Source of the DNA: Gemmatimonadaceae bacterium
GTDB taxonomy: Bacteria > Gemmatimonadota > Gemmatimonadetes > Gemmatimonadales > Gemmatimonadaceae
DNA: 64,000 bases
Direction of reading: 5' to 3'
Assembly (NCBI GenBank): GCA_019637445.1
Contig: JAHBVS010000002.1
Span: 372,001-436,000 of the forward strand
The translations under genes and the position numbers were made by a program. Under the pieces are notes generated by a model. It saw nothing but the letters and a program-made list of their open reading frames with translations, was not told the origin of the DNA and did not search any database. Each line of letters starts with the position of its first letter. Position 1 is the first letter of the stretch. This document shows positions 25,577 to 28,467 of the stretch, piece by piece.

Positions 25577-25690
25577 CCGCCCAAGCCAGCCGCTGGAATC
25601 CTAAACGATTGCTGCGTAGTGCTTTAGCTAAACATCGAACCTTTTGGCGCGGGCCCGGCAGCGCTCCCTTGAGTTCAGACTGCGCAAAGA

Positions 25691-25741
25691 TTCTATACGA
25701 ATGGCAATAATATGTATAGAAATCAACGATATCTATACATA
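25691..25741. promoter_or_regulatory. Triple TCTATAC operator-like array upstream of fic
   Basis: Three copies of TCTATAC lie in alternating orientation at 25692-25698 (+), 25714-25720 (-) and 25732-25738 (+). The first two form TTCTATAC...GTATAGAA (25691-25698 and 25714-25721). The last two form a perfect 10-bp inverted repeat, TATGTATAGA (25711-25720) with TCTATACATA (25732-25741). Centres are 22 and 18 bases apart, roughly two helical turns. The array is strongly AT-rich in a GC-rich genome and ends 38 bases before the fic start. It probably binds a regulator, perhaps the winged-helix tail of the Fic protein itself. Confidence 0.6.
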
Positions 25742-25779
25742 TATTCCTGCGCCGGTCCAGAACACCAGAACCCTCGCAG

Positions 25780-26856
25780 ATGCGCTTCTCGGACGTTCCT
25801 CGAGAGATTTTCGACTCCCCGCAGGTCCTTCGACGCGTCACGGAAGCCGCGCGGGCGCTCGCTGAGTTCAAGGGCGGCGTTGCCACCATTCCGAACCAGC
25901 AGATCCTGATCAACACGCTGGCGTTGCAGGAGGCAAAGGACTCCTCCGCAATCGAGAACATCGTCACGACGCACGACGAATTATTCCGGCACCTGTCCGG
26001 CCCCGATGGTCCGGAGAACCCGACGGCGAAAGAGGTGCTGCGCTATCGCGAAGCGTTGAACGTCGGCTGGGACCGCGTCGCCAAGCGCGGCCTGATCACG
26101 AACAACGATGTCCTGGAGATTCAGGCCGCGCTGGAATCGAGCAAACCGGGATTCCGAAAGGCGCCAGGCACGACGCTCAAAGACTCCGACGGCAGGGTCG
26201 TGTACACGCCTCCGCAGGACGCTCGGCTGATTCGGCAGCTGATGGAAGATCTTGAGGCGGAGCTCAACGCCCCGCCCGATGCCGGACCAGACCCGCTCAT
26301 TCGGATGGCCGTCCTCCATCACTGCTTCGAGAGCATCCACCCTTTCTACGATGGCAATGGTCGGACGGGTCGGATCCTCAACGTGCTCTTCCTACTCAAG
26401 GAAGGGCTGCTCGACCTACCAGTGCTGTTCCTGAGCGGTCCGATCGTGCGGAGCAAGCCGCGCTACTACGAGCTGCTACAGGAAGTGCGTGCGCGCGGCG
26501 CTTGGGAATCCTGGATTCTCTACGTGCTCGACGCAGTGCGGGAGAGTGCCCGCGAAGGCATGGCCCAGGTCTCGAAGATTCGCGATGCGATGCTCGCCGT
26601 GAAGCATCGCGTGCGCGCCGAGTTCCCCAAGCTCTATTCGCAGGATCTGATCAACAACCTCTTCGCGAACCCGTACACGAAGTCGACCTTCCTGGTGCGC
26701 GAACTCGGCGTCTCGCGGGTCACGGCGGCCAAGTATCTCGATCTGCTCGCGGGAGCCGGCATCGTCCGCAAGATCAAACGCGGCCGTGCGACCTACTATG
26801 TCAACGTGAGCCTTCTCGCGATCCTCACCGAGAGCGGCGGCAGTGCATCAGGATGA
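25780..26856 (+). CDS. Fic family AMP-transferase with N-terminal inhibitory helix and winged-helix tail
   Basis: The 358-residue product carries the Fic core HPFYDGNGRTGR (about residues 187-198), matching HxFx(D/E)GNGRxxR, so it should transfer AMP or another nucleotide moiety to target proteins. The inhibition motif (S/T)xxxE(G/N) is present near the N-terminus as SSAIEN (55-60), placing it among self-inhibited Fic proteins with the inhibitory helix inside the same chain. The C-terminal 60 residues (FLVRELGVSRVTAAKYLDLL) form a winged helix, consistent with DNA binding. The operator-like array just upstream fits autoregulation. The gene ends by overlapping the convergent 5'-nucleotidase gene by nine bases. 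No antitoxin gene is adjacent. Confidence 0.9.
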   Translation: MRFSDVPREIFDSPQVLRRVTEAARALAEFKGGVATIPNQQILINTLALQEAKDSSAIENIVTTHDELFRHLSGPDGPENPTAKEVLRYREALNVGWDRVAKRGLITNNDVLEIQAALESSKPGFRKAPGTTLKDSDGRVVYTPPQDARLIRQLMEDLEAELNAPPDAGPDPLIRMAVLHHCFESIHPFYDGNGRTGRILNVLFLLKEGLLDLPVLFLSGPIVRSKPRYYELLQEVRARGAWESWILYVLDAVRESAREGMAQVSKIRDAMLAVKHRVRAEFPKLYSQDLINNLFANPYTKSTFLVRELGVSRVTAAKYLDLLAGAGIVRKIKRGRATYYVNVSLLAILTESGGSASG

Positions 26857-28467
26857 GACGATCCGCCCCATCGCCGGCAGGTCCACGCTCCCTGTGCGCT
26901 TCACGTGCTCCGTGATGAGCTCCGACAGCACCACGTCGCGCCGCACAACGCGCCCGTCAAGGAACCCGCGATACCCATCGCCGCCCTCGGCCAGGAATGA
27001 GTTGGTCGTCACCGTATAGCGCCGCTCCCGCTCCAACGGCGCGCCGCCGACCGAGACCGAGAGCACACGCGCGCCAACCGGCCGCTTAGGGTCATAGCGC
27101 AGTGACACCCCGCTGACCTGACACATCCCCGCGTGCAGCGAGCAGCCGTGCTCCAGCACCTCCCACAACGCGCCGCCCGGAAGATCCACGGTCACGGAGT
27201 CGTTCAGGAACGGGAACGCATCCAACACGTGCCCCTTGTCGATCACACCCTCGGGGATGTCCGCGCGCAGCCCACCAGCATTCGTGATGCCCACCTCGCT
27301 GCGCGCCTGCGCCCGCATCACGTCCGCGCAGAAGGCGCCAAGCGTTGACTCGTGGTGATAACGCCGCGTGAAGCGACGCGCCGCACGGCCCAACGGCGGC
27401 CCGATCTCCGGCGCGATCTTCTCTCGATACCGCGCCACTCGCGCCGTCACGCTGGGATGCGCCGGGATGTCATCGCTGTCCACGCGCAGCAGCGCAACGT
27501 CGTGGCCCACGACACGGCCGCCATCGATTGCCAATCGCACACGCCCGACGCGCGTGCCGTAGCCGTAGGTCTGCGTGATCACCGTGCCGGTGTCGGGATG
27601 CACGATCGGCGCCTCGAGCCCGTGGTGCGAGTGCGCGGCAATGTACACGTCGATGCCCGGCACCGCGCCACAGAAGGCGATGTCTTCATCCAACGATCGC
27701 TGCACCGCCGGATCGTTCTCGGCGTCCGACTGCATTGGACCCGGCAGGCCCTGATGCCCGAGCACCACGATGGCGTCCACGGAACCACGTAGCGCACGCA
27801 CGGAAGCCTTCGCTTCGGCCACTGGATCCGTGAACTCCAACTCCGCGACCTTGCTCGGCATAATCGTCTGCGTGGCGGCGCGCATGCCCATCACGCCGAT
27901 GACCCCGAGCCGGATGCCATCGCGCTCGAGGATGGTGTGCGGCCGCGCGAAGCGTACACCGGAGCCGCGATGCCGCACGTTGCAGCAGAGGATGGGGAAG
28001 GGCACGCGCGTGATGCCGCGCTCGAAGGCTTGCCAACCGTAGTCGAACTCGTGGTTGCCGACGCCCATCGCGTCGTAGCGCAGGAGCAGCATCAGCTCGA
28101 GCAGCGCCTCACCCTCAGTGAGCTTGGACAGCGTGCCGGTGAACATGTCGCCGGAGTCGAGCAGGAAGGCGGTGTCGGCGGCGTTTCGCTCGCGCTCGAT
28201 CAACGTGGCCATATGCGCGGCGCCGCCGAGTCGTGGGGAGCCCGGCAGCCAGAAGGCGGGCACGGGCTCGAAGGCGCTGTGGAAATCGTTGGTGTAGATC
28301 AGCGTGACCTGGCGCGCGCCGTGCGGGGCGCGCCAGCGGTCGCTCCTGCGGCTGACTGTACGTGGCGCGTCGTCGGCGCCAAGCGTCTGGGGCAGGACAA
28401 ACGGTGCTGCGCCCAGCAGGGCCGCGAATTCGCGGCGCGAGAGCTGCGATCGGTCGCTAGGGGCCAT
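26848..28467 (-). CDS. Tat-exported 5'-nucleotidase / metallophosphoesterase
   Basis: The 539-residue product begins with a twin-arginine signal (SRREFAALLGAAPFVLPQ). The metallophosphatase domain shows IYTNDFHSAFEP, LLDSGDMFTG, GVGNHEFDYGW, VLGHQGLPGP and AAHSHHGLE, the successive metal ligands of the UshA/5'-nucleotidase family. The C-terminal domain has the substrate-binding region with ITNAGGLRADIPEG and TNSFLAEGGDGY. It should dephosphorylate nucleotides or related compounds in the periplasm. It is full length for the family. The gene converges on, and overlaps, the fic gene by nine bases, and begins 22 bases from the end of the upstream Omp85-like gene on the same strand. Confidence 0.88.
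   Translation of the reverse strand: MAPSDRSQLSRREFAALLGAAPFVLPQTLGADDAPRTVSRRSDRWRAPHGARQVTLIYTNDFHSAFEPVPAFWLPGSPRLGGAAHMATLIERERNAADTAFLLDSGDMFTGTLSKLTEGEALLELMLLLRYDAMGVGNHEFDYGWQAFERGITRVPFPILCCNVRHRGSGVRFARPHTILERDGIRLGVIGVMGMRAATQTIMPSKVAELEFTDPVAEAKASVRALRGSVDAIVVLGHQGLPGPMQSDAENDPAVQRSLDEDIAFCGAVPGIDVYIAAHSHHGLEAPIVHPDTGTVITQTYGYGTRVGRVRLAIDGGRVVGHDVALLRVDSDDIPAHPSVTARVARYREKIAPEIGPPLGRAARRFTRRYHHESTLGAFCADVMRAQARSEVGITNAGGLRADIPEGVIDKGHVLDAFPFLNDSVTVDLPGGALWEVLEHGCSLHAGMCQVSGVSLRYDPKRPVGARVLSVSVGGAPLERERRYTVTTNSFLAEGGDGYRGFLDGRVVRRDVVLSELITEHVKRTGSVDLPAMGRIVSS

Follow-up and report, generated by a model that had tools for sequence, protein, structure and literature searches.

The fic gene examined here lies in a 64,000-nucleotide stretch of a Gemmatimonadaceae genome (hereafter, the window) and is preceded by a compact cluster of short repeats, which raises the question of which protein reads these repeats and with what consequence for the gene. 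A first-pass annotation of the locus had proposed that the Fic protein, which carries its own winged helix, acts on them itself. The reading that we favor, with a probability of roughly 0.86, is that the repeats are an operator array of the Fic protein encoded downstream, which most likely represses its own gene. The features discussed below are listed in Table 1.

Table 1. Features of the fic locus, with positions in the window
Feature	Position	Strand	Basis
Possible degenerate partner GTTCAGA of the extra half-site	25673..25679	+	Weak, by eye
Extra half-site CTATACG, including most of the first TCTATAC copy	25693..25699	-	13 bp before O1; gap common in related arrays
Extended 33-bp inverted repeat around O1	25710..25742	.	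14/15 arm bases paired
O1, putative main operator, 27-bp dyad TGTATAG-N13-CTATACA	25713..25739	.	Perfect 7+7 arms; one genome match; span shared by relatives
Promoter-like match TAGAAA-17-TATATT overlapping O1	25717..25745	+	Weak consensus match in AT-rich DNA
fic gene, 358 aa, SoFic family	25780..26856	+	ORF, domain models, PADLOC, fold
Class II inhibitory motif SSAIEN, residues 55-60	25942..25959	+	Alignment
Fic catalytic motif HPFYDGNGR, residues 187-195	26338..26364	+	Sequence and alignment
C-terminal winged helix, residues ~288-342	26641..26805	+	PF21248; model secondary structure
Recognition helix, residues 313-325 (V314 = 26719-26721)	26716..26754	+	Model; covariation with half-site base 4

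Three copies of the heptamer TCTATAC alternate in orientation upstream of fic (25692–25698, plus strand; 25714–25720, minus strand; 25732–25738, plus strand), with start-to-start distances of 22 and 18 bases, in agreement with the alternation and spacings given in the first-pass annotation. The window holds five copies of this heptamer for 0.58 expected, a number reached by none of 100 dinucleotide-preserving shuffles of the window. Genome-wide, there are 55 occurrences in 3.35 Mb; in the scan for TCTATAC pairs suggested earlier, the two smallest copy-to-copy gaps are both found upstream of fic and the third smallest is 491 bp. The inverted repeat formed by the second and third copies proved slightly better than the perfect 10 bp originally reported: its arms are perfect over 11 bp (25710–25720 and 25732–25742), and 14 of 15 bases match overall. 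The AT-rich pocket described before fic is also present, the GC content of the 60-mer at 25686 (0.23) being the minimum of the window, as compared to 0.45 for the next lowest distinct 60-mer and 0.675 for the window as a whole. The pattern GTATAGA-N5..30-TCTATAC has a single match in the 3.35-Mb genome, and so does TGTATAGA-N11-TCTATACA with up to three mismatches, the control count being 0 in both cases. The register TCTATAC-N8-GTATAGA, which was also tried, gave four matches versus five in the control, which is chance level; it is the wrong register.

Sequence and predicted fold place the downstream protein in the SoFic family, which consists of class II Fic AMPylases ending in a winged helix and is listed among the anti-phage systems made of a single gene. 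It matches the PADLOC SoFic model at 1.5e-105 and displays the Fic_N (PF13784, 2.3e-25), Fic (PF02661, 8.3e-17) and SoFic-like_C (PF21248, 3.2e-20) domains. Its catalytic motif obeys the rule HPFx[DE]GN[GK]R and is invariant in 38 sequences except for Y190. The N-terminal inhibitory motif of class II Fic proteins follows the rule [ST]xxxE[GN], with which residues S55, E59 and N60, invariant across 38 sequences, agree. In the AlphaFold2 model of the protein (mean pLDDT 87), this motif lies at the end of helix 41–58, next to a segment modeled with low confidence (residues 61–80). The model superimposes on the structure of Shewanella oneidensis SoFic (3eqx) with a Z-score of 44.7 and an rmsd of 1.8 over 350 aligned residues, with 37% identity. 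Altogether, domain models, alignment and predicted fold confirm the earlier description as to both the winged helix at the C terminus and the inhibitory motif. Note that the C-terminal 91 residues alone had no match in a sequence search of solved structures, and that the SoFic entries 9tb0, 9tc4, 9tch and 9tcl are absent from the matches of the fold search (structure set to April 2026).

Defence genes are often patchy in distribution; a search of 16 further genomes of the genus gave no match better than 7.9e-17, so that this gene is patchy as well. A convergent gene coding for a 5'-nucleotidase/metallophosphatase (26848–28467, minus strand) overlaps the end of fic by nine bases, which leaves little room downstream for an AS1-like antitoxin gene, considering the listed ORFs of at least 60 aa. 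In related loci, some recurrent ORFs near fic resemble, by eye, restriction-modification genes; on an Azotobacter plasmid (L138, 246–4939), the SoFic gene is flanked by the genes of a class I DNA methyltransferase and of a restriction endonuclease subunit S, and another Fic gene follows.

We surveyed the DNA upstream of related genes. The training set comprised 25 loci from the same phylum, picked as SoFic-like while more distant Fic matches were set aside, and 80 loci from named genomes of several phyla, with 93 loci left after redundancy removal at 85% identity or more. The held-out set initially contained 94 loci (five from plasmids and a phage record, then groups of 19, 30 and 40, the last two, i.e. 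70 loci, being drawn from a longer set of matches); removing 15 redundant loci and four lacking the N terminus or enough upstream DNA left 75. Perfect 7+7 dyads, sought without any assumption on their sequence, peak at a span of 27 bp, found at 32 of the 93 training loci, with a mean of 1.6 in shuffles and counts of 9/93 within genes and 2/79 far upstream. Dyads with spans of 26–29 bp were also scored, TG ends and an AT-rich middle each adding to the score. At a threshold of 8.4, which was chosen after seeing the training loci, 62 of these 93 loci pass (span 27 in 47, 28 in 11, 26 and 29 in two each), with 8/93 in-gene, 1/78 far-upstream and 3/93 shuffled controls. Applied unchanged to the held-out set, the same threshold is passed by 41 of the 75 loci (span 27 in 31, 28 in nine, 26 in one), with 8/75, 1/37 and 5/75 for the respective controls. 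For the 168 loci altogether, perfect 7+7 dyads with a span of 26–29 bp are present upstream at 99 loci, as compared to 24 within genes, 7/115 far upstream and a mean of 11 after shuffling; note that the in-gene dyad controls are higher than the shuffles. The comparison of orthologous upstream regions proposed in the first-pass annotation thus reveals that the geometry is kept in most of them (103 of the 168 pass). The other 65 non-redundant loci fall below the fixed score, several with weaker or differently spelled dyads and others with none seen, and the phage copy (L142) has no dyad above the threshold. Palindromes do arise more easily in AT-rich DNA, yet a chance arrangement in AT-rich intergenic DNA is next to negligible as an explanation, given that the arrangement is unique in the genome and that the same span recurs across relatives far above shuffles.

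Two groups of loci deserve mention beside this survey. In the SoFic relatives L221, L224, L225, L226, L229, L230 and L231, where the helix reads AENTA or SENTA, the dyads mostly have no TG ends (e.g. AACATTA...TAATGTT, with a span of 28 bp) and are missed by the TG-based score. Upstream dyads with at least eight perfect pairs per arm were seen at 14 of 26 more distant Fic loci, in a count made without controls (L007, L008, L009, L011, L013, L015, L016, L017, L019, L021, L024, L026, L029 and L030); two of these, L019 and L021, come from the genus of the window itself and have 13+13 bp dyads at a span of 31–33 bp. Control by the protein itself may thus be a general trait of Fic-HTH proteins.

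The geometry extends beyond the dyad. Because dyads were picked at spans of 26–29 bp, the inward span statistic is partly circular, a caveat that applies neither to the outward gap nor to the 41-bp period. Of the 103 loci that pass, 27 have a distance of 13 bp, and 51 a distance of 14 bp, from a dyad outward to the next half-site; the same-strand period is 40 bp in 30, 41 bp in 49 and 42 bp in 19, and at least two dyads are present in 34. In the window, CTATACG precedes O1 by 13 bp and therefore fits the array position next to O1; as an array half-site, it accounts for the 22- and 18-base spacings of the TCTATAC copies. These features also bear on the idea that the inverted repeat works as an RNA hairpin, either an attenuator or a terminator, for which a stem of at least 11 AT pairs could form. 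A hairpin would need neither the letters and the 27-bp span, with a middle of 11–15 nt, that the relatives keep, nor the outward half-sites at 13–14 bp, and a search for a terminator-like site at the inverted repeat found none; we therefore consider this idea highly improbable.

Palindromes upstream of genes are commonly regulator sites, and the dyad could be owned by another host transcription factor, with Fic as a mere target, as the first-pass annotation itself had envisaged. Two observations argue against such a foreign factor. First, within 2.5 kb of fic, ORF families other than fic itself reach at most four of the 48 loci compared. Second, the exact motif is nearly confined to fic in the genomes scanned: in 27 genomes chosen for their TGTAWAG half-site class, TGTAWAG-N13-CTWTACA has 20 exact matches, and, as judged by coordinate comparison, all but one (on G319 contig 102), i.e. 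19, belong to the fic locus. A motif match is present in 22 of the 27 genomes, the other five having 28-bp dyads at fic, and one-mismatch matches elsewhere in AT-rich genomes occur at about the control rate. An HTH gene does lie upstream at one of three E. coli loci (L234, see below), but no annotated HTH gene is found in the stretch at the other two.

A foreign factor would also leave unexplained that, in the sequences compared, the letters of the half-site covary with one residue of the Fic recognition helix, which in our opinion makes it very unlikely. Residue 314 is the top column of 339–341 for half-site base 4 in four sets, namely all passing loci (n = 98), the PYT/PYS clade (n = 77) and, within this clade, the training (n = 49) and held-out (n = 28) loci. 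Residues I, L, V, M or P at position 314 go with base A at 62 of 67 loci, and other residues with a base other than A at 30 of 31. A rule that predicts the half-site from residue 314, fixed before the held-out loci were fetched, proved correct in 15 of 16 held-out cases for I/L (failure, L174) and in 12 of 13 for Q (failure, L190); its K part failed in both of two held-out cases. In L193 and L194, K314 is part of an ERKAAS helix and the half-sites are of the TGTC type, contrary to the GG rule derived from Moraxella (L112) and Microscilla (L121). Among held-out loci, S314 is found with TGACTTA in L173 and L175, and P314 with TGTAAAG-type sites in all five passing cases. Besides the K cases, the exceptions to the rule are L076, L083, L085, L103, L174 and L190. 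On a tree built from the Fic part, with the wHTH left out, the residue class changes six times and the operator base 12 times, indicating that residue 314 is only part of the story. Five independent residue changes are usable: the operator changes in the same direction in 4.7 of them on average and in the opposite direction in 0.0 on average (once in a few random pairings), and the five-pair test gives p = 0.0625, the lowest value attainable with only five independent pairs.

Applied to better characterized proteins, the rule leads to predictions. Both EcSofic (the system of PMC12249575) and S. oneidensis SoFic SO_4266 have Q at the position equivalent to 314, for which the rule predicts TGTCGA half-sites; thus, a TGTCGA-type operator is predicted upstream of SO_4266. 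Among 5,426 complete E. coli genomes, a lower-identity search retrieved the SoFic gene from 278, a high-identity search having given none. Three E. coli loci were read; in these, a dyad whose left arm is TGTCGAT stops one base short of the ATG, with related dyads spaced at 70 bp. This dyad pairs TGTCGAT with TGTTTAT; its right arm, read inward, is TGTTTA, and the left arm alone fits the prediction. Being imperfect, the E. coli dyads would fail the fixed score. Similarly, the enterobacterial promoters L232, L233, L234, L235 and L236 display two or three TGTCGA/TGTTTA dyads with a 70-bp period, the last of which ends one base before the ATG.

If the Fic protein reads the array, it might do so as an activator, or chiefly in order that contact with DNA regulates or positions the enzyme. 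The latter has been proposed for CbFic2, an enzyme that DNA binding reportedly activates (PMC10628234); the coupling of the C-terminal domain of EcSofic to its AMPylase domain (PMC12249575) would suit such a role. We consider this alternative rather unlikely: specific sites before fic fit promoter control, the position of the E. coli sites, one base before the ATG, favors repression, and CccR, a Fic protein described below, is a repressor.

By comparison between loci, the existence of the operator, its geometry, its near-uniqueness in the genome, its constant association with fic and its covariation with the recognition helix are established. We infer from these data that the Fic protein physically binds the operator; the initial proposal of a Fic enzyme acting through its own winged helix on its own operator thus receives support of a comparative nature, from the geometry in relatives, the near-confinement to fic and the covariation. 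Repression rather than activation is suggested by the analogy with CccR and by the weak promoter-like match over O1. According to our preferred reading, autorepression through the array, a Fic dimer would read the 27-bp dyad by placing one C-terminal winged helix on each half-site, the half-sites lying about 20 bp, i.e. two helical turns, apart, and the third half-site would seat the next dimer, as in related arrays. Bound Fic would most likely cover the promoter and repress its own transcription, thereby keeping a potentially toxic anti-phage enzyme scarce. As for the trigger of derepression, repression would lift when free Fic drops or is diverted, for example in infection.

A more speculative scheme, which we put forward tentatively and deem doubtful as a whole, is that SoFic could combine the roles of toxin, antitoxin and repressor. 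Bound to its operator, the dimer would be enzymatically silent, the winged helix that reads the promoter clamping the AMPylase domain, and release from DNA at the time of infection would both raise the level of the protein and activate it; co-evolution of the operator with the recognition helix would keep SoFic copies that coexist in a cell, or newly enter it, from regulating each other.

A close structural relative, S. oneidensis SoFic SO_4266 (3eqx, 3zcn, 3zec), has the same three domains as the Fic protein of the window. It is described as inhibited by E73 (PMC3667792); as of 2023, its binding to DNA was stated not to have been demonstrated (PMC10628234). EcSofic, studied with its AS1 antitoxin, is reported as a toxic SoFic dimer with coupling between the C-terminal and AMPylase domains; the words wHTH and winged are absent from this 2025 study, in which the regulation of SoFic toxicity is called "elusive" (PMC12249575). 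In the open-licence literature, considered mainly through titles and the openings of abstracts, we found neither a SoFic operator nor its cross-phylum geometry nor the relation between recognition residue and operator base. For a catalogued anti-phage gene, a conserved operator and a residue-to-base specificity switch make self-control directly testable, also in E. coli, and SoFic operators constitute a set of natural variants in which base selection by a winged helix can be studied.

Self-regulated operons encoding Fic-fold toxins are exemplified by Phd-Doc and FicA-FicT, whose DNA-binding part is carried by a separate antitoxin, whereas here it sits on the enzyme. Kinch et al. suggested in 2009 a possible role in the regulation of fic for the HTH domains found fused to Fic (PMC2686095). 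CbFic2 of Coxiella burnetii resembles the protein of the window as a Fic with a DNA-binding wHTH; its binding is discussed as possibly nonspecific and of high affinity, and the portion of that account available to us mentions no operator (PMC10628234). A Fic protein that binds its own promoter is known in at least one case: CccR of Yersinia pseudotuberculosis is a Fic AMPylase with a C-terminal HTH that is reported to bind inverted repeats in its own promoter and to autorepress, dimerization being required (PMC9755527). As in CccR, an inverted repeat precedes fic in the window and in its relatives. As described in the same article (PMC9755527), CccR differs in several respects: (i) its footprint, AGATAATCAT-N26-ATGATAATCT, covers 46 nt, as opposed to the 27-bp dyad found here, which has other letters and lacks both the CccR half-sites and their 46-nt spacing; (ii) its dimer is arranged back-to-back, unlike that of 3eqx; (iii) it shares 29% identity with SO_4266 over 45% coverage; and (iv) it is secreted by a T6SS.
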